Source: Methanolobus vulcani
Lineage (GTDB): Archaea; Halobacteriota; Methanosarcinia; Methanosarcinales; Methanosarcinaceae
NCBI RefSeq assembly: GCF_006546655.1
Contig: NZ_VIAQ01000009.1
Coordinates: forward strand, 1 to 64,000
Length of the DNA: 64,000 nt
Direction of reading: 5' to 3'
Made by a program: the position numbers and the translations under genes
Notes under the pieces: generated by a model
Seen by the model: only the letters and a program-made list of their open reading frames with translations
Databases searched by the model: none
Told to the model about the DNA's origin: nothing
Shown here: piece by piece, positions 2 through 22,617 of the stretch
Numbering within the stretch: position 1 is the first letter of the stretch
Layout of the letters: each line of letters begins with the position of its first letter

Positions 2-130
2 TTCTTTTTTTCAGAGTTTAATATTTATATTTTAGTTATCCTTTGTTTTTTTATTTATATAATATTATTATTGTGTATGAATGCCTTTACGAAAGAGGAT
101 TATTTATTATTTAAGAAAATATTTAAATGA
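2..130 (+). CDS. C-terminal fragment of a membrane protein, probably an oligosaccharide flippase
   Basis: Only the last 42 codons lie in the window: the frame is open from the left edge to a TGA at 128-130. The visible protein is one strongly hydrophobic segment followed by a short charged tail ending TKEDYLLFKKIFK. A last membrane helix followed by a TKED-type amphipathic tail is typical of Wzx/MATE-like polysaccharide flippases, and a flippase would fit at the head of the glycan cluster that follows. That assignment rests on the tail and the context only; another polytopic membrane protein is possible. The base composition is as A/T-rich as the downstream genes. Confidence 0.45.
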   Translation, partial: FFFSEFNIYILVILCFFIYIILLLCMNAFTKEDYLLFKKIFK

Positions 131-201: not shown

Positions 202-1107
202 ATGTATTTCTTGATGACAAATGATGTGGAGCATCACTCAATTTCACTAAATAAAGAAGATTCAAATATACCATTTCAAATATATCAAACAGGATTACCG
301 AGGCTTCTTGACACACTGAATAAATATGATGTATCATCTACTTTTTATTTCACAGGCATGTTCGCGGAACAATGTCCAGAGTCAGTTGAATTAGTTCACA
401 ACAGTGGTCATGAAGTTGGGTGCCATGGTTATGATCACTCGCCTCTTCGTGCTTTTGATTCTATTAGTTTTGATGATCAAGTAAATGAGTTGAAAAAAGC
501 TAAATCTTTTTTAGAACCTTTAGCAGGTAATGTTTCTTCTTTTAGAGCACCTGCATTAAGATTAAATGATGATACTATTTTAGCTTTGAAAAAAACCGGT
601 TTCAAAACAGATAGTTCTGTTGCATCACAAAGGTTTGATGGTCCTTTTACATTTGGTTCTAAAAACAAATTAAAGTGGTTGAGCGCTCCTAGAAAGCCTT
701 ATACTCTTTCCTATGAATCCCCTACAAAATCAGGTAATTCTGGTATATTAGAAATTCCAATTTCCGCAGTTTTAATTCCTTATATAGGTACAACTATGCG
801 GATATGTCCTTCTCTCTTAAAGTTTATTGAAAAATATATATTTTATGAAGCTTACAAAACTGAAAAACCTGTTGTTTTTCTTTTTCACCCCAATGAATGC
901 CTTGATTATGGTGTCAAGGGTATTTCAACTCGTAGGAGCTCAAACCTTATTGAATATGTTTTTGCAGATGTAATTAGGCATAACTTAAAAATGAGAAATC
1001 TAGGATTAAAATCTATTTCTCTATTGGATGAATTGTTAAAAAAAGCACAGAACTATGGTTTTGAGTTCGTTACAGCTAAGGAATTTGAGCAAATATACAG
1101 GAGATGA
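202..1107 (+). CDS. Polysaccharide deacetylase (NodB family), type 1
   Basis: This is a NodB-fold carbohydrate esterase expected to remove N- or O-acetyl groups from a sugar or lipid-linked glycan. The metal-binding elements are visible: TNDVEHH at the very N-terminus supplies the catalytic Asp, GHEVGCHGYDH around residues 70-80 supplies the two metal His, and FRAP (about residue 115) is the usual RxP motif. The architecture, with the Asp motif within the first ten residues and a long C-terminal half, resembles the deacetylases of bacterial exosortase/EPS loci. I prefer ATG 202 (MYFLMTNDVE) to the earlier in-frame ATG 178, because family members begin just before the Asp motif; ATG 214 is also possible. 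It is the first complete gene of a plus-strand operon-like run and is followed 9 nt later by the PHP gene. Confidence 0.8.
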   Translation: MYFLMTNDVEHHSISLNKEDSNIPFQIYQTGLPRLLDTLNKYDVSSTFYFTGMFAEQCPESVELVHNSGHEVGCHGYDHSPLRAFDSISFDDQVNELKKAKSFLEPLAGNVSSFRAPALRLNDDTILALKKTGFKTDSSVASQRFDGPFTFGSKNKLKWLSAPRKPYTLSYESPTKSGNSGILEIPISAVLIPYIGTTMRICPSLLKFIEKYIFYEAYKTEKPVVFLFHPNECLDYGVKGISTRRSSNLIEYVFADVIRHNLKMRNLGLKSISLLDELLKKAQNYGFEFVTAKEFEQIYRR

Positions 1108-1116
1108 GGGAGCAAT

Positions 1117-1848
1117 ATGGATCAAAATGAACTAGATAATCTATACAAATATGATTTGCATGTACACTCCATTTATTCTTATGATTCATTGTCTACTCTC
1201 AAGAATATATTAAAAAAAGCTAAGTCTTTGGGTTTAGATGGATTAGCAATAACAGATCATGATACAATAAAGGGATCATTGAAGATGTCTGATCTCAACA
1301 AACAATTAGGAAACCCTCTTAATGTAATCATTGGTTCAGAAATCAAAACTAACTTAGGTGACGTAATAGGTTTATTTCTTTCTGATGAGATTGTATCTCG
1401 CAACTTTGAAGATGTTTTGGATGAAATCCATAATCAAAATGGTTTCGCAATACTACCTCATCCATATAAAACTTTTGAGTATATTCCTCAAAATGTACTG
1501 AAGCAAATAGATGCTATTGAAATATTTAACGCAAGAATTCCTGAAATATTGAATAATAAATCTAATGACTTAGTTATGAAGACACATATGTTGTACACTG
1601 GTGGTAGCGATGCGCATATGATTCGACATGTTGGTAAAGGTTTAACAGCATATAGTCAAGATATTGGTCCTTTGTCAGTTGATAACATTAAAATAGCTTT
1701 GAAAAATCCTTGTATCTATGGAGAAGTTTATTCTAGAAAATATCGCTATTATACTGTTGCAGTTGGTAATATCCGCAAAAAGAAAATAGGCCACTTGTCT
1801 AAAATTATATATAATGAATCAAAAAAAATCATAGCTGATAGGAAGTGA
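1117..1848 (+). CDS. PHP-domain metal-dependent phosphoesterase
   Basis: This is a 243-residue single-domain PHP protein. Metal ligands are in order: DLHVHS (H15, H17), ITDHD (D47, H48), HPYK in the middle and GGSDAH near residue 165, the standard set of the PHP phosphoesterase superfamily. These enzymes hydrolyse phosphate mono- or diesters (nucleotides, sugar phosphates); the substrate here cannot be read from the sequence. A good ribosome site (GAGGGAG) precedes ATG 1117. The gene sits between a NodB deacetylase and an ATP-grasp ligase in a glycan operon, so a phosphosugar or lipid-phosphate substrate is plausible, but that is inference. The C-terminus is rich in Lys and Arg, perhaps for membrane or RNA contact. 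Confidence 0.8.
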   Translation: MDQNELDNLYKYDLHVHSIYSYDSLSTLKNILKKAKSLGLDGLAITDHDTIKGSLKMSDLNKQLGNPLNVIIGSEIKTNLGDVIGLFLSDEIVSRNFEDVLDEIHNQNGFAILPHPYKTFEYIPQNVLKQIDAIEIFNARIPEILNNKSNDLVMKTHMLYTGGSDAHMIRHVGKGLTAYSQDIGPLSVDNIKIALKNPCIYGEVYSRKYRYYTVAVGNIRKKKIGHLSKIIYNESKKIIADRK

Positions 1849-1852
1849 ATAT

Positions 1853-3031
1853 TTGTCTAAAGTATTTGTAACTGATGGCCGTTCTCGTGCATCTCTTGCT
1901 ATTGTAAGATCCTTAGGTCATAACAATATTCAAGTCGTTTGCGGTGAATCTTTTGATTGCCCTGCATTTTATTCAAAGTACTGTTCACATAAGTATCTGT
2001 ATTCACCTCCTAATAAGAATCCCGATTTATTTTTGGAATCAATTCTTAAAACTGTAAAAGAAAACAATTATGATACCATCATGCCTGTAAGAGATGACAC
2101 TACTCTTTTATTATCTAAAAACAGATCTCTTTTTGAAGATTATTTTGAGATTCCGATTACTGATTATGATAAACTTATGATTGGTAGGGATAAGTCGAAA
2201 ACGATTAAATTTGCTTTGGCAAATAATATTCCATGTCCACAAACTTATTTTCCAAGTGAGATGGAAGATCTTTTGGACTTAGAGGCAGACTTAAGTTTTC
2301 CTCTAGTCATAAAACCGCATCAAGGTTCCGGTTCACGAGGTATTCAAATAGTAAATTCATACGAAGAACTAATAACTCGATATGATGATGTATGTTGTTC
2401 TTTTGGTCCATCCATGCTGCAAGAATTTATTCCTTACGGGGGTGCTTATGGTGTTTCAATGCTTTTAAAGGAAGGTGAAATTAAAGCAAGTTTTACACAT
2501 AAAAGATTACGAGAATATCCTCAATCGGGAGGTCCGAGTACATTGCGGGAAAGTGTAGAATATCCTCAGATTGAAAAATATGCCTCGACATTATTAAAAA
2601 AATTAAAATGGCATGGTGTTGCTATGGTGGAATTTAGAATTGATGCGCGAAATAACAAACCCATTCTTATGGAAATAAATCCTCGATTTTGGGGTTCATT
2701 GCAATTAGCAATTTCTTCAGGGATAGATTTTCCAAATATGCTTTATACTCTTGCAGTTAAAGGTGATGTCGAGCCTCAATTCTCTTATAAAGTAGGAGTC
2801 AAATCTCGTTGGCTTCTGTTTGGTGATATATTGTGGTATCTAAAATGTGAAAATAAAATTAAACAAGCACCAGCTTTTTTTAGTAAAGAAGGAGCTGTGT
2901 TTGATATTTGTTCAAGAGATGATCCACTCCCTATTTATGGAACCATTAAATATGGTGCATATAAAGTTTTAAGTAAAGAATGGAGATCTCATGTTTTCAA
3001 TAGAGGATGGGGGCTTTCTGGAAATGAATAA
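1853..3031 (+). CDS. ATP-grasp superfamily ligase
   Basis: This is a 392-residue ATP-grasp protein of the carbamoyl-phosphate-synthetase-like branch. The N-terminus (VFVTDGRSRASLAIVRSLG) is the Rossmann-like preATP-grasp domain, the ATP clamp LVIKPHQGSGSRGI lies near residue 155-170, and EINPRFWGS near residue 285 carries the Mg2+-binding Glu and Asn. Such enzymes join a carboxylate to an amine or other nucleophile through an acyl phosphate. The start is TTG 1853, supported by GGAAGTGA just upstream. Genes of this kind in glycan clusters are thought to attach amino acids or other acids to sugars; the nearby deacetylases (which free amines) and FemAB-like transferase make that attractive here, but the substrate is unknown. 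Confidence 0.8.
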   Translation: MSKVFVTDGRSRASLAIVRSLGHNNIQVVCGESFDCPAFYSKYCSHKYLYSPPNKNPDLFLESILKTVKENNYDTIMPVRDDTTLLLSKNRSLFEDYFEIPITDYDKLMIGRDKSKTIKFALANNIPCPQTYFPSEMEDLLDLEADLSFPLVIKPHQGSGSRGIQIVNSYEELITRYDDVCCSFGPSMLQEFIPYGGAYGVSMLLKEGEIKASFTHKRLREYPQSGGPSTLRESVEYPQIEKYASTLLKKLKWHGVAMVEFRIDARNNKPILMEINPRFWGSLQLAISSGIDFPNMLYTLAVKGDVEPQFSYKVGVKSRWLLFGDILWYLKCENKIKQAPAFFSKEGAVFDICSRDDPLPIYGTIKYGAYKVLSKEWRSHVFNRGWGLSGNE

Positions 3032-3812
3032 TCTATTAAATAGGGATTTTACGTTAATGAAATATAACTCTCTATGTAAAGCTTTAATTGATTCTGATTA
3101 TGTACCTTTGACTGTGGTTGATTACTTAAAGTCAAATAATGATAGTTTGAAATCAGTAGTTTTGCGTCATGATGTCGATAAATGGCCTCAAAATGCTTTG
3201 CTTATGGCTCAAATAGAATCTAAATTTAATATTAAATCAACTTATTACTTTCGAGCACAAAATAACGTGTTTAATCCTCAAATTATAAAAAAAATATCAG
3301 ATCTCGGACATGAAATTGGTTATCATTATGAAACGATGCACAAAGCAAAAGGTGATGAAGAGTCTGCTCTGCAGATATTCGAAGCTAACTTATGTAAATT
3401 TAGGGATATATGTAAAATTGAAACAATATGTATGCATGGTAATTCTCTTTCAAAATGGAATAATTTGGATTTGTGGAAACACTACAATTACAAGGATTAC
3501 AATATAATTGGTGAAGCTTATTTGTCGTTTGATTTTTCACAAATACTTTATTTTTCAGATTCTGGTGGTACTTGGGATAATTCAAAAATAAGAATTAAAG
3601 ACATTACTGTAGGAAAGTCAATTTCTTCTCCTAAAGAAGTTAAAAACACGCAGGATTTGATTGAATTAGTTGTGAATGGTTCTGCTAATAACTTGTATCT
3701 GTTATCACATCCTGACCGGTGGAATGATTCCTTATCCATATGGATTTATGAATATATGTGGAAAAAAATCAGAAATACAGGGAAGTTTGTTGTAAAAAAG
3801 ATTATAGGGTGA
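3024..3812 (+). CDS. Polysaccharide deacetylase-like protein (NodB fold), type 2
   Basis: This is a second, divergent NodB-fold protein. It shows RHDVDKWP (catalytic/metal Asp pair) near residue 45, a GHEIGYHYE motif near residue 95-105, and MHG and SHPDRW later, which fit the HxxxH and C-terminal His motifs of the family in altered form. It lacks the TFDDG form of classical chitin deacetylases, so the substrate is likely different. The start is placed at ATG 3024, which overlaps the end of the ATP-grasp gene by 8 nt and follows a G-rich ribosome site; an earlier in-frame ATG at 2991 would overlap more deeply and has no such site. The overlap implies translational coupling with the ligase. 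Confidence 0.7.
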   Translation: MNNLLNRDFTLMKYNSLCKALIDSDYVPLTVVDYLKSNNDSLKSVVLRHDVDKWPQNALLMAQIESKFNIKSTYYFRAQNNVFNPQIIKKISDLGHEIGYHYETMHKAKGDEESALQIFEANLCKFRDICKIETICMHGNSLSKWNNLDLWKHYNYKDYNIIGEAYLSFDFSQILYFSDSGGTWDNSKIRIKDITVGKSISSPKEVKNTQDLIELVVNGSANNLYLLSHPDRWNDSLSIWIYEYMWKKIRNTGKFVVKKIIG

Positions 3813-3818
3813 TTTTTC

Positions 3819-4835
3819 GTGATATCTATAATATCTTCATTTGATGACGACATTTGGAATGATTTTGTTTATAATCATCCACATGGTAATATTTTTCAAA
3901 GTGCTGAAATGGCACATGTTTATAAATCTACTAAAAATCAAGAGTCTATATCATTAATGGCTTTTGATTCTGTAAATAATGATGTACTTGCTGTTATTCA
4001 AGCAGTAGTTATATCTGAATATTCTAGTCCATTTAAATATTTTTCATCCCGTTCAATTATAATGGGCGGACCCTTGTTTATTGATAATGAACAAGGAATT
4101 AAAGCCGTTAATCTTTTACTAAAAAAATATGACGAAATCATTAAAAAAAAAGCAATTTATTCTGAAATCAGAAATTTATGGGATGTTAGCTTTTATCATA
4201 ATGTTTTTAAAACAAATGATTATCAATATTCAGATCATTTGAATTACATAAATTATTTGGATGAGGATTGCGATAAACTGTGGAGTAAATTGAGAAAGTC
4301 AAAACGGAATTCTATTGCAAAAGGAGTCAAATTAGGAACTAAAGTTGAAGAAGTGATAGACTCATCTTTAATTACTGATGTATATAGTTTGTTAGAAGAA
4401 ACATTACATGGAAAAAAACCACTTGCAGATATAAGTTTATTTAATTCCGTAATTAATTATTTAGTTCCAAGAAATATGGCAAAAATATGGATTGCAAAAA
4501 ATGAAGGACAAATTATAGGTGTAGTTATTATTCTAATGTATAAATCAGTACTTTACGATTGGTATGCGGGCTCTTCTAGGGATAATCAATATTTGTATCC
4601 AAATGATATCCTTCCTTGGGAAGTAATAAAATGGGGACATAATAATAGTTATAAAAAATTTGATTTTGGTGGGGCAGGAAGCCCTGATAAAATATATGGG
4701 GTGCGTGATTTCAAAAAAAGATTTGGTGGAGATGAAGTAAATTATGGGCGATATAAAAAGATACATTCAAAATTGCTATGTTTTTTTTTAAAAAAAGTAT
4801 ATCGGGTACATAAGTATATCAGGCATTGGTTGTGA
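3819..4835 (+). CDS. FemAB-like / GNAT-fold acyl or aminoacyl transferase
   Basis: This 338-residue protein resembles the FemAB/peptidyltransferase-like group with two tandem GNAT halves. Features seen are an N-terminal W-ND-V--HP-GN-FQS pattern, typical of these proteins, a basic stretch LRKSKRNSIAKGVK near residue 160, and a C-terminal half with YDWYAG, P-D-LPWE-IKWG and FDFGGAG followed by YGVRDFKKRFGG, which is strongly characteristic. Bacterial relatives move amino acids from aminoacyl-tRNA onto peptidoglycan precursors; archaea have no murein, so the acceptor here is unknown and may be an aminosugar. The start is GTG 3819 after GGTGAT. It overlaps the next gene by a GTGA-type junction. 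Confidence 0.7.
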   Translation: MISIISSFDDDIWNDFVYNHPHGNIFQSAEMAHVYKSTKNQESISLMAFDSVNNDVLAVIQAVVISEYSSPFKYFSSRSIIMGGPLFIDNEQGIKAVNLLLKKYDEIIKKKAIYSEIRNLWDVSFYHNVFKTNDYQYSDHLNYINYLDEDCDKLWSKLRKSKRNSIAKGVKLGTKVEEVIDSSLITDVYSLLEETLHGKKPLADISLFNSVINYLVPRNMAKIWIAKNEGQIIGVVIILMYKSVLYDWYAGSSRDNQYLYPNDILPWEVIKWGHNNSYKKFDFGGAGSPDKIYGVRDFKKRFGGDEVNYGRYKKIHSKLLCFFLKKVYRVHKYIRHWL

Positions 4836-5305
4836 TTCAAGTGCTATGTTTTAAGTTTATTAAAAAAATATTAAAAATACTTGCAAAATATTCTCCTGTC
4901 AATGGCCTTAGAATTCTATTTTTGAGGTTGTCGGGATATTCAATCGGGCATGATGTATATATCGCAGAAGATCTTATAATAACAGAAGAACTAAATAATA
5001 GAAAAAACCTGATTATTGGTGATAGAGTTTCCATTGGTCCAAGAGTCACATTTGTGACATCTTCAAATCCGAATAATTCAAAAATATATCCCTATGTGTC
5101 AGTTAAAAGTGGATGTATTATTATAGAAGATGATGTTTGGATAGGGTCCAATGCTGTTATTTTACCAAATGTTGTGATTGGGAAAGCATCTGTAGTTGGT
5201 GCTTGCGCTTTAGTTACAAAAAGTGTCTCCCCTTTCACAATTGTAGGTGGTGTTCCTGCTAAAGTAATAGGGGAATTAAATGTCAAAAAAAAAGATTTTA
5301 ATTGA
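4832..5305 (+). CDS. Left-handed beta-helix (hexapeptide repeat) acetyltransferase
   Basis: This small acyltransferase of about 157 residues has imperfect hexapeptide repeats: IGHDVYI, IGDRVSIGP, IIEDDVWIGSNAVILPNVVIGKASVVGA, then the usual C-terminal VPAKVIG. WIGSNAVI and GGVPAKVIG are hallmarks of the sugar O- or N-acetyltransferases close to maltose/galactoside acetyltransferase and WbbJ. It would use acetyl-CoA to acetylate a sugar in the glycan made by this cluster. I take GTG 4832, which gives a 4-nt GTGA overlap with the stop of the FemAB-like gene; TTG 4826 is the other choice. The 3' end overlaps the next gene by 26 nt, so the three genes are probably cotranslated. Confidence 0.8.
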   Translation: MIQVLCFKFIKKILKILAKYSPVNGLRILFLRLSGYSIGHDVYIAEDLIITEELNNRKNLIIGDRVSIGPRVTFVTSSNPNNSKIYPYVSVKSGCIIIEDDVWIGSNAVILPNVVIGKASVVGACALVTKSVSPFTIVGGVPAKVIGELNVKKKDFN

Positions 5306-6326
5306 TATACTTCATCCTGCAGATATTAATTTTTTTAAGAATACGATTGAGATTCTTAAAAAAAATAACATTGATGTAGTAATTATTTATCGAGATCGTG
5401 GTAAGTTATCCACTATTTTAAAAAAAGAGTTGCCATCTCAAAATCCAATTCTTATAGGTAAACATTATAATTCTTTCCTTATGAAAACAATAGGATTGCT
5501 TACTAGAAGCATTCATATTAGGCAATTCATTAAAAAAAATAATTTTGATTTGTGTACAAGTTTTGGGTTTTTTGTAGGTACTTCTACAATCATGCAGAGC
5601 ATTCCGTCTATCTTATTTGGAGATGATAGAGAGTATCGATTAGCATACTATATTTCAAAATACAGTGGCAATTACTTTATACTCCCACGTTCTATAGAAG
5701 GAAATGGTAAAAACATCTTGCATTATGCTGGATTTAAAGAATTAGCTTATGTTCATCCTAATTATTTTGTTCCGAATCAAAAATCTCTTCTCTCTTATGG
5801 ATTACAGCCTAATAAATACGTTTTCATAAGGGATGTTTCATCAAATAGTATGAATTACTATAAGTCTAAGGTTATGAATTTTAATTTAATTATAGATAAA
5901 ATATTAGATTTAGGTTTGACTCCCGTTCTATCTAGTGAAAATGATGTAATTCCAACTAATGTTAAAAATAAATGTATTTTATTAAAGGAACCTGTTCACG
6001 ATATTTTTTCAATATTAAGCTTCGCTCTTTTTTCTATATCTTCAGGAGACACTATGGCTAGGGAATCTTGTTTAGTAGGAACACCTTCTATCTATTCTGG
6101 TAAAAGAAATATGCAAGTAAATCAAGATTTTATAAGCAAAAATTGTATGTTTCCAGTTTTTAATGATGATGAGTTAATTAATACAATTGATTTTATATAT
6201 CATGATAATATTAAAGAACATGTAAAGGAATCAATAGATTTGGCATTAAATCTAGAATGGGATGATACAACACAATATATGTCTAGTTTATTATTAGACA
6301 TGATTGATAAAAATAATGTGGGTTAA
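5280..6326 (+). CDS. DUF354 family protein, predicted GT-B-like glycosyltransferase
   Basis: The opening KKILIDILHPADINFFKNTIE, the YRDRGKL stretch and the central SFGFFVGTSTIMQSIPSILFGDD are typical of the archaeal DUF354 family, related in fold to UDP-GlcNAc 2-epimerase and MurG-type GT-B enzymes. Near residue 255 a SSGDTMARESCLVGTPSIY motif is the counterpart of the nucleotide-sugar binding loop that ends GTPxI in that fold. The biochemical role of the family is not settled; glycosyl transfer or nucleotide-sugar processing is the best guess. Length (348 aa) is normal. It starts inside the preceding acetyltransferase gene and is followed 3 nt later by a deacetylase. Confidence 0.7.
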   Translation: MSKKKILIDILHPADINFFKNTIEILKKNNIDVVIIYRDRGKLSTILKKELPSQNPILIGKHYNSFLMKTIGLLTRSIHIRQFIKKNNFDLCTSFGFFVGTSTIMQSIPSILFGDDREYRLAYYISKYSGNYFILPRSIEGNGKNILHYAGFKELAYVHPNYFVPNQKSLLSYGLQPNKYVFIRDVSSNSMNYYKSKVMNFNLIIDKILDLGLTPVLSSENDVIPTNVKNKCILLKEPVHDIFSILSFALFSISSGDTMARESCLVGTPSIYSGKRNMQVNQDFISKNCMFPVFNDDELINTIDFIYHDNIKEHVKESIDLALNLEWDDTTQYMSSLLLDMIDKNNVG

Positions 6327-6329
6327 GAT

Positions 6330-7412
6330 ATGTTGTCTAACAATAGTAGTATAATGCATGATAAATCTCTTGTGAATAAATCATTTACTTCTCATTTATT
6401 AGAAATAATGGCTGTAATTTGTGATTATTTGGGTTTTACATATTTTTTTCGTATAATTGCAACGTTTCGTCGAAACAAGGTTGCAATTTTGATGTATCAT
6501 AGAGTTACTAATCTATCTTTGTTAGATAATGATAATATTGTTTTACCTGATGTTTTTGAGAAACAAATCCAATATTTAGTCAGGCATTATAATGTTATTA
6601 CATTTAATGAAGTAGTTGATTTTGTTTCAGGTAAATTACAAAATATCCCTCGAAATTCGGTGATCCTTACTTTTGATGATGGTTACGAAGATTGTTATTC
6701 AATTGTATATCCTATTTTAAAAAAATACAATATACCATGCACTTTTTTTCTATCAACCGATTACATAGAGTCCAATGACTTTTTTTGGTGGGATAAAATT
6801 AGTTTAATGATAAACAAGACTAAAGGTGATTACTATTTTTCAGAATTTGGTCAAATTCCGCTAAATACACAACATGAAAAAATAAGGGCTAAGTATCTAC
6901 TTTTAAATGCATTAAAAAATATGAGTAACCGTGACAAAGAAAAAGTGATAAAAAAACTAGAACAAGTATTGAATTTTAATACCGATGACTATTCCCCTTG
7001 TTGTTTAAGTAGACAAGAGATAAAGATAATGAGTCAAAACGGAATGGATTTTGGGTCTCATACATGTTCTCATTCTTTACTTACGCGGATTCCACTTAAT
7101 GAAGTTGATGTAGAAGTAAGTCATTCTAAAAAAACAATAGAAGATATAATTGGGAAAAATGTAATTTTGTTTTCTTATCCAGGGGGAACTATTAATGATT
7201 ATAATGACTCTATCAAAAAATCGTTATATAAAAATGGGTATTTTTTGGCTGTCTCTACTATATATGGGCTAGCCAAGATATATAATAATGTGAATATATA
7301 TGAACTACCTCGCTTACCGGTGTATTATCAAACTAATTTTTCATTGTTTAAATTACAACTTACAGGTATTATAGATAAATTGTTTATGTTAAGAAAATTA
7401 GTCAAAAGGTGA
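6330..7412 (+). CDS. Polysaccharide deacetylase (NodB family), type 3
   Basis: This is a classical NodB deacetylase. VAILMYHRV (about residue 52), VILTFDDGYEDCY (about 110-122, with the catalytic base and metal Asp), GSHTCSH (about 235, metal His pair) and FSYPGG (about 285) are all present. The family cleaves N-acetyl groups from polymeric or lipid-linked GlcNAc. There is a short N-terminal extension with one weakly hydrophobic segment and no clear signal peptide, so it probably acts on the cytoplasmic face. ATG 6330 lies 3 nt after the previous stop. It is the third and most canonical deacetylase of the cluster; the three differ enough that they are not recent duplicates. Confidence 0.85.
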   Translation: MLSNNSSIMHDKSLVNKSFTSHLLEIMAVICDYLGFTYFFRIIATFRRNKVAILMYHRVTNLSLLDNDNIVLPDVFEKQIQYLVRHYNVITFNEVVDFVSGKLQNIPRNSVILTFDDGYEDCYSIVYPILKKYNIPCTFFLSTDYIESNDFFWWDKISLMINKTKGDYYFSEFGQIPLNTQHEKIRAKYLLLNALKNMSNRDKEKVIKKLEQVLNFNTDDYSPCCLSRQEIKIMSQNGMDFGSHTCSHSLLTRIPLNEVDVEVSHSKKTIEDIIGKNVILFSYPGGTINDYNDSIKKSLYKNGYFLAVSTIYGLAKIYNNVNIYELPRLPVYYQTNFSLFKLQLTGIIDKLFMLRKLVKR

Positions 7413-7418: not shown

Positions 7419-8252
7419 ATGAACTCAAAACTTGGTCCAAATCAAGAAAAAAAAGTAAAAAATTATTTTTCTAACTATGCAAATGCTTATTATAAAGAAA
7501 ATTATGATGGGAGTCTAAAAAATTGTTATTCATATTCTCATATTGTTCGAAAAAACCATATTATGAGAATGATCGACTTCAACCAAGGTAGAATATTAGA
7601 TATCGGATGTGGTCCTGGTGTAATCACTTATAGTTTGTTATTACAAGGCCATGAAGTATGGGGGGTGGATGTTTCTGAATCGATGATAAAGGAAGCATCA
7701 GAAAGGATAGAACAAACAGAATTTAAACAGAAAGCTCACTTTTCTGTTGGTGATATCACTTCCTTGGATTTTCCTGATAATTACTTTGATGCTGTTATTT
7801 GTTCAGGTGTCTTAGAGTATTTAGAAAATGATGATAAAGCACTTAAAGAAATATATCGTGTCCTCAAGTTTGAAGGTGTCGCTATTTTTGGTGTTCCAAA
7901 GCCAAGAAAAATATATGCCAAATCTATAGAAATAATCCGTAAAATTTTAATGCCATCAGTTCCAACTTTAGTGAGAATAAAAAGAAAAAGAAGCAACCGT
8001 GAATATAGGGGTGATTCTTCAACAAGATATTTTGGACATAATACATATACTTCTTCTACATTAGATAGTATATTAAATGGAGTAGGATTTAAAAAATTGG
8101 ATTATGCTAATTATCATTTCGTATCGTTATTTTTATGTTTGTTAGCTCCTAATTTATCATTAAAAGTTGGAGAAAAACTTGATGAATTATATTATAAATC
8201 TACATGTTTAAGCAGTTTTTCAAAAGGTTATATTGTTAAAGTTCAAAAGTAA
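7419..8252 (+). CDS. SAM-dependent methyltransferase (class I)
   Basis: The central motif I is ILDIGCGPG near residue 60, followed by VWGVDVSESMI (motif II, acidic residue binding the ribose) and VGDITSLDFPDNYFDAVICSGVLEYLEN (motifs III-IV). These define a class I methyltransferase of the UbiE/Coq5-like Methyltransf_11 group. Length is 277 aa, with a basic C-terminal region (VRIKRKRSNREYRG). The acceptor cannot be read from the sequence; in this position a glycan hydroxyl or carboxyl is likely. The start ATG 7419 follows GGTGATTTTAT, overlapping the stop region of the deacetylase gene. Confidence 0.8.
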   Translation: MNSKLGPNQEKKVKNYFSNYANAYYKENYDGSLKNCYSYSHIVRKNHIMRMIDFNQGRILDIGCGPGVITYSLLLQGHEVWGVDVSESMIKEASERIEQTEFKQKAHFSVGDITSLDFPDNYFDAVICSGVLEYLENDDKALKEIYRVLKFEGVAIFGVPKPRKIYAKSIEIIRKILMPSVPTLVRIKRKRSNREYRGDSSTRYFGHNTYTSSTLDSILNGVGFKKLDYANYHFVSLFLCLLAPNLSLKVGEKLDELYYKSTCLSSFSKGYIVKVQK

Positions 8253-8264
8253 AAATTGGTCACT

Positions 8265-9188
8265 ATGAATGCTAATATAGAAACTACTCATAGGAGTTAT
8301 ATATTGATAACTCCTGCGAAAAACGAAGAACTCAATATCGAGAAGTTAATATTTTCTGTCATGAATCAAACTTTAAAACCATTGTTATGGTTGATTATTG
8401 ATGATGGTAGCACAGATTCAACTCCAGAAATAATACATAAAGCTGAACTCGAGCATGAATGGGTTACTAGTATTACATTGAATGAAAAACCACGAGATGT
8501 TCACAAGCATTATGTAGAAATATGCAATAATGGATTTAGGAATATAATAGATATTGCTGCTAGTAGAGGGCTTGATTTTAATTATATTGGGGTAGTAGAT
8601 GCAGATATAATTCTAGAGAATACATTTTTTGAAAATTTAATTACTGAATTTGAAAAAAATTCTTCTTTAGGTATTGCTAGTGGGGCTGTAACATACATTG
8701 ATGAGAATGGAAATGAAGAAATAGAATATGTAAAAAATGATGAGCCTGTGGGTGCTATGCGTCTATGGAATATTGAATGTTTTAATGAGACTAATGGTTA
8801 TTATAGCAGTTATGCACCAGATTCTGTATCTAACGTGCTTGCTCTTTTAAACGGTTGGGAGGTTAAATTATTTTATCACATAAAAGCAATTCATTTAAGA
8901 AAAACAAGGACTGCAGAAGGCGTTTATAATGGCTATAAGTTGATGGCAGTTTCAGATTATTATAGAAATTATCATCCTCTTTTTCTTATATTAAAAAGCT
9001 TATCTATACTTATAAAAAGACCTTTGATCGGAATTTCCTATATACATGGATTAATTTATTGTATTTCCAATCATATTGAAAAGATTGATGATGTTGGTGT
9101 TAAAAATTATTACTATACAAAAACATTATCTGATATAAAAAAGATTGTTTTCTATTCAAAAAGTGTATCTTTGGGGGAAACTAATTGA
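8265..9188 (+). CDS. Glycosyltransferase family 2
   Basis: This is a GT-A fold glycosyltransferase. LITPAKNEELNIEKLI near the N-terminus, WLIIDDGSTDSTPEI and the DAD metal-binding motif in GVVDADIIL (about residue 110) are diagnostic of GT2 enzymes, which use UDP/GDP/dTDP-sugars and a divalent metal. No strong membrane helices are seen, though the C-terminal 70 residues are moderately hydrophobic. I choose ATG 8265; the TTG at 8256 is in frame and possible, and neither has a strong ribosome site. The gene overlaps the next by TTGA. It probably adds one sugar to a lipid-linked glycan. Confidence 0.85.
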   Translation: MNANIETTHRSYILITPAKNEELNIEKLIFSVMNQTLKPLLWLIIDDGSTDSTPEIIHKAELEHEWVTSITLNEKPRDVHKHYVEICNNGFRNIIDIAASRGLDFNYIGVVDADIILENTFFENLITEFEKNSSLGIASGAVTYIDENGNEEIEYVKNDEPVGAMRLWNIECFNETNGYYSSYAPDSVSNVLALLNGWEVKLFYHIKAIHLRKTRTAEGVYNGYKLMAVSDYYRNYHPLFLILKSLSILIKRPLIGISYIHGLIYCISNHIEKIDDVGVKNYYYTKTLSDIKKIVFYSKSVSLGETN

Positions 9189-10774
9189 GTAGCCCTAAAA
9201 AAACAAAAGTACAATTATTTCTTCTTCTCATCGTATTAAATGTAATTTTGCGCATGCCTATTTATTTTTATGAGATTGGATGGGATTCATTTAATATTCA
9301 TATATTAGCTAATGCGATATCTTATTTTGGAAAAGCGAATTACTGGGAATCTGTATATTCTGTTTTTGGGTTTTACCCTTTATCCTATGCAAGCAGTCTG
9401 CCGTTCTTAATATCAGGTTTATCACAATTATCTAATTTAGCTAATTATTATTCAATATTCATCATTAGCGTATTTCTAGGAATATTTTGTATTTTTTCAT
9501 CTTATTCGATGTCTACTTTTATTAGAAAAGATTATCCTTTTATCTTTATATTCACATTATTATTTTCGATATCATCTGGTGTTCTTTTTCTTACTACATA
9601 TACAGCAAGTACAAGAGGTCTTTTCATAGCTTATATTCCTCTTTTAATATATTCAATGATTAAAATCTCTTATGATGTAAAGATAAAATCGATGATTATT
9701 TTTATAATGCTTTTTGTTTTTTTAATGTCAACACATCATTTATTCTTTTTTACAATTCCACTTATTATGTCTTTTATTGTAGCAAATGTTTTATTTTGGA
9801 TAAAAAATAGTCGCCATACTTATTTCTTTAGGGGCTATTCGCTTGAGTTTATTTTTATGGTATTGTTGCTTGCTTCGATAATTTTGCCATTTTTAATGCA
9901 TTTATTTTGGTCATTTGATCCAACCATTCAACGATTAAGTATTGGTGGGTCAAAGTATGCTGTACTGGAAAGTGTTCTCTATCAATATACTCGATATATT
10001 GGTGTTTTAATACCTTTCGTTGTTAGTGGGTATATTTTCGTTTTGTTAAATAAAAATAAAACAACTATTGACTATTTTTTACTCACAATCCCCATATTAT
10101 TACTTCCTTTTATTTATCTCCCAACATATATGGAATGGTTTTTGCTTCCAATAGTTACTATATACATATCTATCGCTCTCTCTAACATATGTAGAAATAT
10201 GTCTTACAAGTTACATTTTAATATATTTTCTATCTTCATTATTTTTTTATTATTAAGTGGATCTTTATTTTCATCTTATTACCAGTTTTCACATTTTGAA
10301 TCAGACGATTCTCGTATAATGAAAGATTCAACATATCATACTGGTGTATGGATAAACAGAAACGTAAATGGCAGTTTCTTTTATACAAATGGTTTGATTG
10401 CTCTCAGAGTGTTTTCCATTTCACAAGTTTCTACTTTGTTTGGTGATAGCATTGGACTTTCATATGGATATTATAATAGTACTCAAGATTTAAATCTCTC
10501 TAAAAATTCACCTTTTTCTGTCAGCTATTATATAGATGGTCCAGTAGTCAAAACTCCAGGTGCAGCGTATATTGAAGGTGATATTAATCAACTTCACTTA
10601 AGTGAATATAATAGCAAATGGGGGCAGTACTTTATATCTAAATATGATATTACTCATGTAATTCAATATAAATTAGGTGCACAAACAACATTTATGCAAT
10701 CTATTTATCCAGTCCACAATGAAATTTATGATAATGGAAAAATTAGTTTATGGAGTTTAACAAATGAAATATAA
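9185..10774 (+). CDS. Polytopic membrane protein, possible GT-C glycosyltransferase
   Basis: This 529-residue protein has about ten to twelve hydrophobic segments covering roughly the first 370 residues, then a soluble C-terminal part of about 160 residues. A short acidic motif, EIGWDSF, sits in the first outer loop after helix 1, where GT-C glycosyltransferases (PMT/Alg/STT3-like) keep their catalytic Asp. That, the topology and the neighbouring GTs suggest a dolichyl-phosphate-sugar-dependent transferase acting on the outer face, but no definitive GT-C signature is visible. The start is TTG 9185 overlapping the previous stop (TTGA), with GGGGG eight nt upstream. A polymerase role (Wzy-like) is the main alternative. 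Confidence 0.55.
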   Translation: MSSPKKTKVQLFLLLIVLNVILRMPIYFYEIGWDSFNIHILANAISYFGKANYWESVYSVFGFYPLSYASSLPFLISGLSQLSNLANYYSIFIISVFLGIFCIFSSYSMSTFIRKDYPFIFIFTLLFSISSGVLFLTTYTASTRGLFIAYIPLLIYSMIKISYDVKIKSMIIFIMLFVFLMSTHHLFFFTIPLIMSFIVANVLFWIKNSRHTYFFRGYSLEFIFMVLLLASIILPFLMHLFWSFDPTIQRLSIGGSKYAVLESVLYQYTRYIGVLIPFVVSGYIFVLLNKNKTTIDYFLLTIPILLLPFIYLPTYMEWFLLPIVTIYISIALSNICRNMSYKLHFNIFSIFIIFLLLSGSLFSSYYQFSHFESDDSRIMKDSTYHTGVWINRNVNGSFFYTNGLIALRVFSISQVSTLFGDSIGLSYGYYNSTQDLNLSKNSPFSVSYYIDGPVVKTPGAAYIEGDINQLHLSEYNSKWGQYFISKYDITHVIQYKLGAQTTFMQSIYPVHNEIYDNGKISLWSLTNEI

Positions 10775-11876
10775 TATATATATGGTTTCAAGTGCAGATT
10801 CAACTATGGAATATGGGTCTACAACAAGGCCTTATTATATATCAACATATTTAGTTCAGAATAAAGATATCAATATATATCATATGTGTGAAAATCCTAC
10901 TAATTTTCAAGATAATTTAATACATTATTATCAAAAAAACAAAAAAAACAAATTTAAAATTATAAATGATCTTATGTTGCTCTATAAAATATCAAGGTCT
11001 GCATCTCCACACATATTATATCCACATCAGCCTGTCAATGCATTGAGACTACTGCCTTTTAAGTTTTTATTTAATTCTCCTTTAATTTATGATGCGCATA
11101 GTGCCTTCTGTATAGAAAACAATAATTTTAAAAATCGTTTAATAGAGAAAATTATATTAAAATACTCTAACATTGTTATTGCACCATCAGCAATGCTAAA
11201 AGAAGTTTTAATTCAGAACTATAATCTTAACCCTGATAAAATAAAAATAGTTGAAAATGGAGTTGATACTACAAAATTATACCCAGAAAGTTCTGATATT
11301 TTGCTAAAAGATACTTTAGGTATAAATGAAGATGATAAAGTAATTGTATTTACCTGTCCTCGCATCGAAACTTTTCCTGCTAACACTATAGCATTAAGAT
11401 ATATATTTGATCTTTTTCCTAAAATTGAAAATAGACTACATAACATTAAGTTAGTTATTATTGGTGGTGGTACTGAAATTGATACGCCATCTGAAAATAT
11501 AATATATGTTGGATATGTACAAAACTTATCTAAGTATATAAATCTTGCAGATGTATGCATAGCACCTTATCCTTCTACTGCTGTTTGTGGAGGCACTCGA
11601 AATAAAGTTGCCGATTATTTCGCATGTGGTAAGGTTGTTGTTTCTACGGAAGAAGGAATTAGTGGGTTTGATGACGCGATGCCCGATGTTCATTTTTTAT
11701 TGGCTCAAAGTGAAGATGATTTTGTTTCAAAAATAGTTCAAGTTTTGACTAGTCCTGATGGTATGTCTAATATTGGTCTTAACGCAAGGGATTTGTGTGT
11801 AAAAAAATATGATTGGAAATTGAAAAGCAACGAAATATGTTCTATAATGAGATATTTACTAAAAAATAAGACCTAA
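10764..11876 (+). CDS. Glycosyltransferase family 4 (GT-B), first
   Basis: This 370-residue GT-B enzyme has a C-terminal nucleotide-sugar domain that is clear: KIKIVENGVDTTKLYP, KLVIIGGGTE, IIYVGYVQNLSKYINLADVCIAPYPST and GGTRNKVADYFACGKVVVST. In place of the usual E-x7-E pair it has the GGTRNKVADYFACGKPVV-type variant common in GT4 group-1 enzymes. The N-terminal acceptor domain is less conserved. ATG 10764 lies within the end of the membrane protein gene (11-nt overlap), so the two are coupled. Together with the next gene it would extend the glycan by retaining transfer from a nucleotide sugar; donor unknown. Confidence 0.8.
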   Translation: MKYNIYMVSSADSTMEYGSTTRPYYISTYLVQNKDINIYHMCENPTNFQDNLIHYYQKNKKNKFKIINDLMLLYKISRSASPHILYPHQPVNALRLLPFKFLFNSPLIYDAHSAFCIENNNFKNRLIEKIILKYSNIVIAPSAMLKEVLIQNYNLNPDKIKIVENGVDTTKLYPESSDILLKDTLGINEDDKVIVFTCPRIETFPANTIALRYIFDLFPKIENRLHNIKLVIIGGGTEIDTPSENIIYVGYVQNLSKYINLADVCIAPYPSTAVCGGTRNKVADYFACGKVVVSTEEGISGFDDAMPDVHFLLAQSEDDFVSKIVQVLTSPDGMSNIGLNARDLCVKKYDWKLKSNEICSIMRYLLKNKT

Positions 11877-11890: not shown

Positions 11891-13036
11891 ATGAAAATAA
11901 CATACTTATTACCTCATTCACCTGAAGTCTGCGGATTAAACAATGATGCATTTAAAGAGTCAACTCATTTCTCACTTATTTTTTGTGAAAAACTAAGTGA
12001 ATTAAATAATGATGTAGAATTGCTGTACTTTGGAACAAAATATTCCGTGAATAAAAAAGAATATGAAATAATTGAATTTCCCGTGTCAATTGGAAAATCA
12101 TTTGGACAAGAATTATCCGTTCCTCTTTTAAAGTATTTGTTAACAATGGATTCAGATATTGTCCATATTCATGGTCTTAGACAAGTTAACTTACTACCTA
12201 TTGTTGTGATATTGTACTTAAAAAAAATACCTTTTATTGTTCATCATCATGGTGGATATTTTAATTATTCAAAAAGGAAAGTGCGTTTTTTCTATAAAAT
12301 AATGTCATTTTTTTTAAAATATCCTTGTGTAACTCTTTCTGTAAGTAAAATTGAAATAAAAAACTTACAAAAATCTGGTGTATCTGCAAATAAACTGATT
12401 CATTTTCCTGTTGGAGTAGATTGTTCTCAATTTTATCCAACTGATCAGGCAATATCAAGGACAAAATTATCGCTTAATACTGATGATATATATATTTTAT
12501 TTGTTGGGAGAATGGTTTTTCTAAAAGGGGTTCAATATTTGATTAAAGCAATATCTATATTGCAAAAAAACTATAATAATGTACGCTTGATTCTTGTGGG
12601 GGATGGTCCCCAACATGCTTATTTTAAGTCCGTTGCAGAGTTGGAAAATGTATCAGATGTTGTATCTTTCGTAGGTTTTGTAAATAACTATGAAAAGTTA
12701 CGTACCTACTATAATGCTACAGATATTTGCGTATTTCCTTCTCTATCTGAAGGTTCCGCTATAGTAACTTTAGAAGCCATGGCCTGCAAAAAGCCAATTA
12801 TTTGTACACGAGCTCATCTGGGTGGAGGTATAGTTGAAGATTACACAAATGCTTTGATTGCCGATATTAATCCTTCCTCAATTGCTGAAAAAATAGTTGA
12901 ACTAATAGAAAATAAATCGCTGCAAGATTCAATAAGTAAAAGTGGCTACAATTATGTAACTAATAATCTCTCATGGGAAGTTTTATCAAAAAAACTGAAT
13001 GATATATATATAAGCAATAATTTAACTGTAGATTGA
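11891..13036 (+). CDS. Glycosyltransferase family 4 (GT-B), second
   Basis: This is a canonical GT4 enzyme of 381 residues. It shows HHHGGYF in the N-terminal domain, KLIHFPVGVDCSQFYP at the linker, ILFVGRMVFLKGVQYLIKA, LILVGDGPQ, VSFVGFV and FPSLSEGSAIVTLEAMACKKPII, which contains the E-x7-E nucleotide-sugar motif. It is a retaining transferase using an NDP-sugar. AAGGTGTGAT upstream of ATG 11891 is a good ribosome site. It is the last intact gene of the glycan run; downstream the sequence decays into a transposase remnant, so the cluster may once have continued. Confidence 0.85.
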   Translation: MKITYLLPHSPEVCGLNNDAFKESTHFSLIFCEKLSELNNDVELLYFGTKYSVNKKEYEIIEFPVSIGKSFGQELSVPLLKYLLTMDSDIVHIHGLRQVNLLPIVVILYLKKIPFIVHHHGGYFNYSKRKVRFFYKIMSFFLKYPCVTLSVSKIEIKNLQKSGVSANKLIHFPVGVDCSQFYPTDQAISRTKLSLNTDDIYILFVGRMVFLKGVQYLIKAISILQKNYNNVRLILVGDGPQHAYFKSVAELENVSDVVSFVGFVNNYEKLRTYYNATDICVFPSLSEGSAIVTLEAMACKKPIICTRAHLGGGIVEDYTNALIADINPSSIAEKIVELIENKSLQDSISKSGYNYVTNNLSWEVLSKKLNDIYISNNLTVD

Positions 13037-13534: not shown

Positions 13535-13873
13535 TATAAAGGATACGATTCTGAAGAGATACATTCACTAGCGAGAGAACAACTAGAAGCAATAGCTATG
13601 ATTCCTTTGAGACAAAGAAAAAGGAAGAGAATTAAAGGATTCTATCGCAGGAAAATGGTGTGGGAATTTGATCGAGAATTGTATAATAACAGAAACCTCG
13701 TTGAAACGATGTTCTCTGTTCTGAAAAGAAAATATGGTGAAGAGGTAAAAGCAAAAAGGTATTGGAATCAACTAAAAGAAGTCAAGTTCAAGCTATTAGT
13801 GCATATCCTTGACAGGTACGTCAAGGTTATACTTGTTGTCAAAATGAGGATTTCTACAAAGCCGCAAATCTAA
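13535..13873 (+). pseudogene. C-terminal remnant of an IS5-like DDE transposase
   Basis: From 13541 the frame reads [15 protein letters not shown], then [17 protein letters not shown], then [18 protein letters not shown] and a basic tail to TAA at 13873. The spacing KGYDS, basic patch, and NLVE-x-FS-LK-K(Y/F)G with the catalytic Glu matches the C-terminal half of IS5-type transposases common in Methanosarcinales. It is broken: a TGA stands at 13532-13534, and no intact N-terminal half carrying the first two catalytic Asp residues is present. I saw no clear terminal inverted repeats. It marks a past insertion at the end of the A/T-rich glycan cluster. Confidence 0.7.
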
Positions 13874-21171: not shown

Positions 21172-22617
21172 TTACTGATTGGTGATTGAATGACTGTTCT
21201 TGTCTCCGCGTCCAATTCCTTTGTACACAAATCCTGCATTTATGAATATATCAGGATCAATAACATTCCTTCCATCTATGATTACAGTATGTTCCTTGCC
21301 TGTGAGTTTCTTAATGTCCTCTGGTTTCAGGCTGAAATACTCTTTGTGTCCTGTAAAGATAACAACTGCATCTGCTCCTTCTATAGTTTCATTTGAATCT
21401 TTCAGGAGCTCAACATTAGGGTAGCTGAGAACATGCGGATCATGCACTTTAAGTTCTGCACCTGCTTCAAGGATCATGTCCTTGTAAGGTTCTGATGGTG
21501 GATTGCGTGCATCATCTGAGTCATTGATGAAAGCCCAGCCAAGCATGGCAATCTTTGCTCCCTTAATGTCCATGTTTATTCTTTTAAGTGCGGCAACAGT
21601 AAGGTTATACATGTGTACAGGCATGAAGTCGTTGACCCTGCGGGCAAGAACATAGATTGACTCTGCATCCTGTGGGTAATCAAGAGCTTCAGTTCCTAGT
21701 TTTACACCACGTTCAAGGTGATATGTGTCCTTGGTAAGGCAATGTCCACCAACACCGGCACCTGGCCAGAGTATGGCTCTTGTTATGCCTTCCCCTTTCA
21801 GGCTGTCAATGCCAGCTCTGACATCATATACATTGATTCCCATGGCCTCACAGTAAAGAGCAAGCTGGTTAGCTGCTGCTATCTGCAGGTCTCTGAATGT
21901 GTTCTCTGCTGTCTTTGTAACTTCTGCTGCCGTTGCACTCATTGGTATAACCTTGCCCTCTGTGAGTACAGGGGAGTAGAGTTCAACTGCTCTGTCGGTG
22001 CTTGCTTTATCAATACCACCAACGATCCTGTCATGTTCCTGTATATTGCGAAGCAGTCTTCCAACCATTACTCTTTCAGGTGCATGTGCCAGTGCAAAAT
22101 CTTCTCCTGCCTTAAGTCCTGACTCTTCCTCGAGGATCTCTCTAGCCATACTTTCAGTAGTTCTGGGGGTAATGGTAGACTCAAGGACAACAAGCATGCC
22201 TGGTTTAAGGTATTTACCTACATTACGGATACCTTCCTTAAGTGCTCCAAAGTCAGGTTCCAGTGCCTTTGGGTCTGCAAAAGGTGTTTGGATAGCCAGT
22301 GTAATCGCATCAAGTTCTGCTATTCTGGAAAAGTCAGGTGTACATTCAAACTTGCCAGCATCAGTGATCTTTTTCAGGAGCTCTTCCAGTCCGGGTTCTT
22401 CTCCCTTAAGTGGACTTTCACCATTGTTGAGCATATTTATCTTGTAACCTGATGAAGGAGAATCTCTCTGGAATCCAAGTACGTGGTCAAACTTATCGGA
22501 ATCAGCAAAAAGAGCGGCTGCAGGGATACCCACATAACCCATTCCGATAACACCAATTTTCTTTATAGGTCCTTTTTCTTTCAAAATATTCTCGAGTTTA
22601 TGGCTCATGATAATCAT
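21172..22617 (-). CDS. UDP-N-acetyl-sugar 6-dehydrogenase (WbpA/WecC type)
   Basis: This is a 481-residue nucleotide-sugar dehydrogenase. The NAD-binding N-terminus is KKIGVIGMGYVGIPAA, the middle domain contains STITPRTTESM and APERVMVGRL, and the active-site thiol is in GVGGHCLTKDTYHL (Cys about residue 292). It would oxidise C6 of UDP-GlcNAc or UDP-ManNAc to the uronic acid in two NAD steps. It is the last gene of a four-gene minus-strand operon (acetyltransferase, aminotransferase, oxidoreductase, dehydrogenase). The start ATG 22617 overlaps the previous stop as ATGA; ATG 22608 (MSHKLE) is the alternative and has a good upstream AGGAATGAT. Confidence 0.85.
   Translation of the reverse strand: MIIMSHKLENILKEKGPIKKIGVIGMGYVGIPAAALFADSDKFDHVLGFQRDSPSSGYKINMLNNGESPLKGEEPGLEELLKKITDAGKFECTPDFSRIAELDAITLAIQTPFADPKALEPDFGALKEGIRNVGKYLKPGMLVVLESTITPRTTESMAREILEEESGLKAGEDFALAHAPERVMVGRLLRNIQEHDRIVGGIDKASTDRAVELYSPVLTEGKVIPMSATAAEVTKTAENTFRDLQIAAANQLALYCEAMGINVYDVRAGIDSLKGEGITRAILWPGAGVGGHCLTKDTYHLERGVKLGTEALDYPQDAESIYVLARRVNDFMPVHMYNLTVAALKRINMDIKGAKIAMLGWAFINDSDDARNPPSEPYKDMILEAGAELKVHDPHVLSYPNVELLKDSNETIEGADAVVIFTGHKEYFSLKPEDIKKLTGKEHTVIIDGRNVIDPDIFINAGFVYKGIGRGDKNSHSITNQ

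Follow-up and report, generated by a model that had tools for sequence, protein, structure and literature searches.

Bacterial exosortase (XrtA)/PEP-CTERM exopolysaccharide (EPS) loci carry a FemAB-type protein (TIGR03019) and a deacetylase (TIGR03006). Sortase A joins proteins to glycine bridges made by Fem enzymes, and archaeosortase C (ArtC) is a sortase-like enzyme for PEF-CTERM proteins. Porphyromonas gingivalis and Tannerella forsythia make a linking sugar by the Wbp/Vim pathway: serine or glycine is placed on a diamino-uronic sugar by the combination of a deacetylase with a FemAB-like enzyme, and T9SS-sorted proteins are joined to this sugar (Veith et al., 2020, PMC7468200). The FemAB-like enzyme VimA matches TIGR03019, and its exchange in P. 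gingivalis changes the amino acid (PMC7468200). The exosortase acceptor compound is called unidentified in the same work, and among archaeosortases the literature consulted offers a proposed acceptor for ArtA only, namely an ethanolamine lipid, to which the synteny of the amine-acceptor genes pssA and pssD with artA in Methanosarcina had pointed (PMC7157517). An amino acid in amide linkage on an archaeal glycan has a precedent in Methanococcus, where threonine forms an amide on a uronic acid by an enzyme which was unidentified in a 2010 review (PMC2952790).

The window analyzed here, the first 64,000 nucleotides of contig NZ_VIAQ01000009.1 of Methanolobus vulcani, shares with the Wbp/Vim pathway a gene for a probable CE4-type deacetylase beside a FemAB/VimA-like gene as well as the WbpA/B/E/D role set for a 2,3-diamino-uronic acid. 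The tie to sortase-type C-terminal protein attachment is also shared, with ArtC adjacent in relatives and, in this genome, located across a contig junction. The archaeal operon differs in having ArtC as its neighbor instead of the T9SS sortase, in its additional ATP-grasp and PHP genes and two further deacetylases, and in that no WbpS-like asparagine synthase gene was seen in it. Its FemAB-like protein and deacetylase B would take the roles of VimA and VimE. With the XrtA/PEP-CTERM EPS loci it has in common the association of FemAB, deacetylase, glycosyltransferases and an exosortase-superfamily enzyme; however, the sorting enzyme is ArtC, the signal is PEF-CTERM, and the FemAB-like protein and deacetylase A are remote from the bacterial families (59.1 bits, E 3.8e-16, below the curated cut-off of 260.35 bits for TIGR03019; 75.4 bits against 276.2 for TIGR03006). 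The initial annotation knew of no described archaeal pathway with this gene set, but the Wbp/Vim pathway is a close bacterial counterpart (PMC7468200), and the window also contains genes for the enzymes of its upstream part. We consider it about an even chance (roughly 0.5) that the operon builds a surface glycan with an amino-acid-bearing amino sugar, as an archaeal counterpart of Wbp/Vim which includes the role of ArtC acceptor.

Gene order and the Wbp-type precursor operon

Three unlike NodB/CE4-type deacetylases had been read at 202–7,412 together with PHP, ATP-grasp and FemAB-like enzymes, and this gene content is confirmed: all eight open reading frames are open at the coordinates in Table 1, lie on the forward strand and are separated by gaps of at most 9 bases or overlap, and deacetylase B carries CE4-like motifs. 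The extent was set too short, as the region forms the front part of a 13-gene operon of a Methanolobus-type methanogen which continues unbroken to 13,036 with genes for a methyltransferase, a GT2, a GT-C-like membrane protein and two GT4 enzymes. Pfam cut-offs are passed by the PHP, ATP-grasp, FemAB/Acetyltransf_6, Hexapep and DUF354 proteins and by deacetylases A and C, while the GT-C-like protein has no Pfam match. The GC content of the operon is 29.6%, compared to 42% at 21–64 kb.

Table 1. Features of the glycan operon and of the Wbp-type operon in the window; roles are predicted.
Feature	Coordinates	Strand	Evidence or remark
Flippase C-terminal end, Wzx-like	2..127	+	remainder at end of contig C18
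Deacetylase A, NodB/CE4	202..1107	+	PF01522 68.5 bits
PHP-domain metal-dependent phosphoesterase-like enzyme	1117..1848	+	PF02811 52 bits, PF13263 29.7 bits, both above cut-off
ATP-grasp ligase, PRK12767/ATP-grasp_3 type	1853..3031	+	PF02655 41.8 bits, above cut-off
Deacetylase B, FemAB partner, VimE-like role	3024..3812	+	CE4-like motifs; weak structure matches
FemAB-like aminoacyltransferase (predicted), VimA-like role	3819..4835	+	PF02388 45.5 bits; AF2 model
Hexapeptide acetyltransferase, left-handed beta-helix	4826..5305	+	PF00132 57.4 bits
DUF354 protein, probably GT-B type glycosyltransferase or epimerase	5280..6326	+	PF04007 62.4 bits
Deacetylase C, IcaB/PgaB-like, accessory	6330..7412	+	PF01522 90.2 bits; TIGR03938 70 bits, under cut-off
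SAM-dependent methyltransferase	7419..8252	+	PF08241 93.4 bits
GT2 glycosyltransferase, conserved core gene	8256..9188	+	PF00535 51.9 bits
GT-C-like polytopic membrane protein, conserved core gene	9185..10774	+	10 hydrophobic segments
GT4 glycosyltransferase	10764..11876	+	PF13692 57.3 bits
GT4 glycosyltransferase, final operon gene	11891..13036	+	PF00534 132.4 bits
Nucleotide-sugar dehydrogenase, WbpA role	21172..22617	-	TIGR03026 314.7 bits, cut-off 189.8
UDP-GlcNAc 3-dehydrogenase, WbpB role	22614..23552	-	NF040723 525.2 bits, cut-off 450
DegT sugar aminotransferase, WbpE role	23546..24640	-	PF01041 444.9 bits; PDB WbpE 3nyu E 2.3e-72
Hexapeptide N-acetyltransferase, WbpD role	24692..25357	-	PF00132 109.8 bits; PDB 3mqg LPS acetyltransferase E 8.5e-23

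The second operon, at 21,172–25,357, is predicted from its sequence to encode the enzymes for UDP-GlcNAc(3NAc)A, a 2,3-diamino-uronic acid. Against the linking-sugar reading, this sugar may simply belong to ordinary N-glycans, as is the case in Methanococcus.

The FemAB-like enzyme and the deacetylases

In archaea without peptidoglycan, the setting of a FemAB-like enzyme is unlike that of the FemABX enzymes, and the protein in the window further differs from FemABX and the Orf11/Sba18/Sbb17 group in its aminosugar glycan operon context, while the double-GNAT fold and the catalytic lysine are shared. Its AF2 model (pLDDT 91.9) exhibits two GNAT domains in a FemX-like fold and is matched by Foldseek to FemX and Sba18/Sbb17 (6snr, 3.5e-19; 9wqy, TM 0.70/0.81) at 14–18% sequence identity. 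Lys299 aligns with the catalytic Lys305 of FemX, the equivalent of Lys329 in DhpH-C, and is kept in 75 of 76 relatives. Sba18 and Sbb17 are aminoacyl-tRNA-dependent, with a structure solved in the presence of streptothrisamine, an aminosugar antibiotic substrate, and the key lysine of these transferases is covered in a review together with one tRNA-dependent aminosugar aminoacylator (PMC12945691). Fold and catalytic lysine point to the use of aminoacyl-tRNA by the modeled enzyme. The protein also has a hit to the GNAT profile Acetyltransf_6, and acetyltransferases of the GNAT fold are ranked further down among its Foldseek matches, so it could instead be an acyl-CoA-dependent acyltransferase placing a short acyl chain in place of an amino acid on the sugar amine. 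This is very unlikely, as the best matches in both sequence and structure are aminoacyl-tRNA users whose catalytic lysine is the most conserved residue among the FemAB relatives, and as the VimA exchange in P. gingivalis alters the amino acid (PMC7468200).

Deacetylase B stays below the PF01522 cut-off (17.2 versus 23.1 bits), and its top structure matches include CE4 enzymes, weakly and with low TM scores. Nevertheless, at least 98% of the 108 relatives compared retain its motifs RHDxD and GHExGxHYE and His229. Relatives were recovered from the genome contigs by an alignment-based scan, whereas a single-sequence scan gave none. The gene lies beside femAB in 38 of 85 loci from several phyla, and the deacetylase B–FemAB pair (3,024–4,835) is a conserved module of archaea and bacteria. 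A DUF354 gene is present in nearly all operons with this pair, and a hexapeptide acetyltransferase recurs downstream of FemAB in ArtC loci. In many loci without ArtC, a DPM-like GT2 is located directly upstream of deacetylase B, and formyltransferase genes occur as well; an ArnC/ArnD-like function in the deformylation of lipid-linked sugars was therefore considered and is kept only as an option for the group removed. Bordetella WbmS, a candidate for the closest deacetylase, was set aside, as the paper examined gave nothing on its function.

The label “DUF3473-type” was too loose for deacetylase A (PF11959, 16.7 bits against a cut-off of 29.6). This protein shares 68.6% identity with a gene directly adjoining archaeosortase C in genome G098 and 66.7% with a gene in the ArtC locus of G001. 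The best relatives of the PHP protein adjoin ATP-grasp relatives, and both are found together in seven genomes (G002, G049, G052, G057, G058, G066, and G098), while deacetylase C has a single relative among the loci studied. The earlier picture of a glycan decorated with amide-linked amino acids is retained for amine exposure and for amide-bond addition of an amino acid on a surface glycan, but the three deacetylases do not form a single module: B belongs with FemAB, A with PHP and ATP-grasp, and C is accessory.

Synteny with archaeosortase C

An exosortase had been reported missing, which is correct within the window but is an effect of the assembly, because the contig ends and one flippase gene crosses the join. 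The same genome encodes an ArtC (TIGR03762, 334.5 bits, cut-off 100; G000:C18:194234-195043) with the invariant residues C226, R271, and H291; its gene lies on contig C18, about 2.4 kb before the contig ends, and ArtC is adjacent in almost all relatives. The end of C18 and the start of the window share a 24-nt overlap containing 1 mismatch; the C18 part of the flippase corresponds to residues 0–437 of a 474-aa relative and window positions 2–127 to residues 432–472, the latter with an alignment score of 78 versus 63 for the best of 500 shuffles. Six PEF-CTERM proteins above the TIGR03024 cut-off are encoded in this genome, one of them near artC.

ArtC is present in 28 of 31 genomes with FemAB as opposed to 26 of 118 others, and in 24 cases lies within 10 kb, in genomes whose relatedness means that the Fisher p overstates independence. 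Either FemAB or ATP-grasp occurs in 32 of the 33 assessable Methanosarcinaceae ArtC loci, and relatives of the GT2 (approximately 37–49% identity) and of the GT-C-like protein are found in ArtC loci, the latter in the same place. The ArtC-linked FemAB of G098 scores above the TIGR03019 cut-off of 260 (292.3 bits). Against this link, the operon and ArtC are on different contigs in G113, and Methanoperedenaceae contain many ArtC genes without such an operon neighbor. A 905-aa neighbor in relatives would have named the amino acid had it been an alanyl-tRNA synthetase, but this idea was rejected, as it is a DUF1616 protein.

The operon could alternatively produce an amino-acid-decorated exopolysaccharide or S-layer glycan without any anchoring role, placed beside ArtC only by the clustering of surface genes. 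The low GC content, the strong variation of gene content outside the core between species in the manner of surface-polysaccharide islands, and deacetylase B–FemAB pairs in archaeal and bacterial genomes and loci without ArtC (for example G104 and G130) are in line with this, and we regard it as a serious but somewhat doubtful explanation: the place beside ArtC persists across nearly all Methanosarcinaceae even though the remaining genes differ, it is filled by FemABs from at least three distinct clades or by ATP-grasp instead, and the bacterial Vim precedent connects deacetylase–FemAB chemistry with protein attachment.

The replacement of FemAB by ATP-grasp in the ArtC loci of G001, G002, and G006, along with the known threonine amide on a Methanococcus uronic acid (PMC2952790), could also mean that the key amide is made by ATP-grasp on a uronic acid carboxylate, with FemAB and the deacetylases as side modifications only. 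This is unlikely, as most ArtC loci contain FemAB without ATP-grasp and a sortase-type step needs a free amine and not a blocked carboxylate.

Proposed mechanism and significance

In the proposed anchoring pathway, the Wbp-type operon, whose enzymes are recognized from sequence, would supply UDP-2,3-diacetamido-glucuronate. Cytosolic deacetylase B, judged by its family and partner, would strip one N-acetyl (or formyl) group, and FemAB would load the exposed amine with an amino acid taken from aminoacyl-tRNA. ATP-grasp, together with PHP and deacetylase A, might conceivably supply a further or substitute amide. The glycosyltransferases, the GT-C-like protein and the flippase would then assemble and export the glycan. 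Finally, ArtC, whose gene lies just upstream, would cleave PEF-CTERM proteins and couple the C-terminus created in this way to the amino acid through its free amine, a step suggested by synteny and modeled on sortase A and on the attachment of T9SS cargo to the Vim sugar.

By synteny and analogy, the operon product is probably the ArtC acceptor. An aminoacyl sugar is proposed because the deacetylase–FemAB module is syntenic with artC, following the same logic that led from artA to the ethanolamine lipid; the haloarchaeal ArtA with PssA/PssD likewise combines an archaeosortase with a proposed amine acceptor from syntenic genes, which is archaetidylethanolamine in that case (PMC7157517). The precise linkage, in which ArtC would join the PEF-CTERM C-terminus to the amino group of a FemAB-placed amino acid on a deacetylated diamino-uronic sugar, is put forward tentatively, at slightly less than even odds.

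If true, PEF-CTERM proteins would have one specific acceptor that is open to testing, and a bacterial protein-anchoring chemistry would extend into archaea. Archaea without peptidoglycan would then spend aminoacyl-tRNA on a cell-surface polymer, and an archaeal FemAB–sortase axis would exist in analogy to Fem/sortase A of Gram-positive bacteria and Vim/T9SS of Bacteroidota.

Extent of the operon and the contig junction

The initial annotation described a glycan operon with three unlike deacetylases at 202-7412. The eight genes there are all real and tightly packed; those for a hexapeptide acetyltransferase and for a DUF354 protein go unmentioned in its title. Past 7412 the gene run goes on unbroken as far as 13036, encoding a methyltransferase, a GT2 enzyme, a polytopic membrane protein that matches no Pfam family and, finally, two GT4 enzymes. 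The GC content of the operon is 29.6%, as opposed to 42% at 21-64 kb of the window.

Relatives carry, divergent from the operon, a PF09721 gene that scores 320-414 bits against TIGR03762 (cut-off 100 bits), the model for archaeosortase C (ArtC), a sortase-like enzyme for PEF-CTERM proteins. The organism's own artC (334.5 bits) lies on a second contig, C18, at 194234-195043, 2.4 kb from the contig end, and its product has retained the three invariant residues Cys, Arg and His. The window covers bases 1-64000 of the 75,828 in its own contig (C9) and, starting at base 1, begins at a contig end. The end of C18 and the start of the window share a 24-nt overlap with one mismatch, and a flippase gene is split between them: in an alignment with a 474-aa relative, the C18 part covers residues 0-437 and window positions 2-127 correspond to residues 432-472. 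It follows that the window operon is the artC locus, interrupted by the contig end. The earlier remark that no exosortase is in the window holds for the window, artC being on C18, but not for the locus, to which artC belongs. Six PEF-CTERM proteins over the cut-off are encoded in this genome, one of them within the artC region.

Downstream of the operon, a dockerin protein also carries a cohesin-like stretch by eye; to our knowledge, cohesin and dockerin in one archaeal protein would be unusual.

Features of the window, with position, strand and remarks
Feature	Position	Strand	Remarks
Deacetylase A (NodB/CE4-type)	202-1107	+
PHP enzyme	1117-1848	+
ATP-grasp ligase	1853-3031	+
Deacetylase B (CE4-like)	3024-3812	+
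FemAB-like protein (FemAB)	3819-4835	+
DUF354 protein	5280-6326	+
Deacetylase C (NodB/CE4-type)	6330-7412	+
91-aa ORF	13598-13873		between operon and dockerin protein; transposase-fragment-like by eye; no Pfam match
Large secreted-looking protein	13950-17312		directly after operon; dockerin type I and Big/PKD domains
MraY/WecA-type glycosyltransferase, LegB/GalE-like epimerase, VanZ-family gene	17953-21170		between glycan operon and Wbp-type operon
Wbp-type operon	21172-25357		four enzymes below
Nucleotide-sugar dehydrogenase	within 21172-25357
UDP-GlcNAc 3-dehydrogenase	within 21172-25357		NF040723, 525 bits (cut-off 450)
WbpE-like aminotransferase	within 21172-25357
WbpD-like acetyltransferase	within 21172-25357
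CCG-domain protein	35245-36147		grouped with genes at 39848-45243; electron-bifurcation-like cluster
Molybdopterin oxidoreductase domain protein, polyferredoxin, fused oxidoreductase/FlpD protein	39848-45243

Conserved pair and rarer module

Candidate relatives of deacetylase B number more than 500 across archaea and bacteria, and the recurring gene order among relatives is deacetylase B, FemAB, optional genes (hexapeptide acetyltransferase, ATP-grasp, PHP or aminotransferase), DUF354, GT2, membrane protein and GT4 genes. In 38 of the 85 loci where a deacetylase B was recognised, FemAB lies on the same strand and either adjoins it or stands no more than one gene farther downstream; these 38 include loci of Chloroflexota, Desulfobacteraceae, TA06 and Bacteroidota. 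Deacetylase B and FemAB are a cross-domain pair and not a peculiarity of this genome. A second, rarer module consists of deacetylase A, PHP and ATP-grasp. Deacetylase C has a single relative across the entire locus set. The top PHP relatives adjoin the top ATP-grasp relatives, in the order ATP-grasp, deacetylase A-type, PHP (genomes G049 and G057), deacetylase B, PHP, ATP-grasp (G002, G058 and G066) or, beside artC, deacetylase A, FemAB, PHP, ATP-grasp (G098). A single run on CABMCA010000067.1 (locus L103 = G058:C67) holds deacetylase types A and B, FemAB, PHP, ATP-grasp, DUF354, GT2 and the membrane protein.

Genes of the WbqC family and a PIG-L deacetylase recur just before GT2 in seven operons (L026, L030, L035, L072, L096, L139 and L184), joined there in several by formyltransferase genes; this suggests an extra N-acyl exchange step that the window lacks. 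Where ArtC is missing from a locus, a DPM-like GT2 is often found directly upstream of deacetylase B (L078, L087, L089, L098, L101, L112 and L115), an arrangement which recalls ArnC/ArnD.

Linkage of FemAB and ArtC

Across 149 genomes of the order, a close FemAB relative (>250 bits) is present in 31, and ArtC occurs in 28 of these versus 26 of the 118 others (Fisher p 2.7e-12, relatedness of genomes uncorrected). The two genes lie at most 10 kb apart in 24 genomes, usually about 2 kb. Methanosarcinaceae ArtC loci of sufficient length were counted by hand, with the own genome included via the contig junction: in 32/33, FemAB or ATP-grasp is no more than about 9 kb away, G113 being the sole exception; ATP-grasp occupies the artC-adjacent place in G001, G002 and G006. 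When 86 FemAB proteins are placed on a tree, the label "ArtC near" takes 7 changes versus 26.6 in shuffles. ArtC-linked FemABs spread over at least three separate clades, so different FemABs have come to occupy the artC-adjacent place on more than one occasion. Against the link stand the many Methanoperedenaceae ArtC genes that have no neighbours of this kind, as well as G104 and G130, which carry the deacetylase B-FemAB pair without ArtC. Far from ArtC, three distant FemAB-like genes alternate with genes of about 630 aa in locus L041 (G006:C5, 6494-14129) and form their own clade together with a Thermosipho sequence.

Predicted FemAB activity and the Wbp/Vim precedent

The confident AlphaFold2 model of FemAB (pLDDT 91.9) is closest to the solved structures of FemX enzymes and of Sba18/Sbb17, aminoacyl-tRNA-dependent enzymes crystallized with streptothrisamine, an aminosugar antibiotic core; sequence profiles point to the same families. 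Lys299 aligns exactly with the catalytic Lys305 of FemX and is the top conserved residue of the FemAB group (75/76). Deacetylase A, deacetylase B and FemAB contain no strongly hydrophobic segment, which would fit action in the cytosol, where aminoacyl-tRNA is available. FemAB probably uses aminoacyl-tRNA on a deacetylated sugar, a reading to which we give roughly three chances in four.

A precedent comes from sorted T9SS cargo of Porphyromonas gingivalis and Tannerella forsythia, whose C-terminus is amide-bonded to 2-N-seryl-3-N-acetylglucuronamide or 2-N-glycyl-3-N-acetylmannuronic acid (Veith et al., 2020, PMC7468200). There, a diamino-uronic acid was proposed to arise from the Wbp pathway, to lose its C-2 acetyl to the deacetylase VimE and then to receive an amino acid from VimA, which matches TIGR03019 and whose exchange replaces serine by glycine. 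Related sugars in exosortase bacteria were raised as speculation, in a part of that paper where archaea are unmentioned (PMC7468200).

The window system works like the Wbp/Vim pathway; outright membership in that pathway is not claimed. The chances that its sugar is a diamino-uronic acid are about even. In Methanosarcina, artA is syntenic with the genes (PssA, PssD) for the amine acceptor proposed for ArtA (PMC7157517). If the same reasoning carries over to artC, ArtC might, more tentatively, take the resulting amine as its acceptor.
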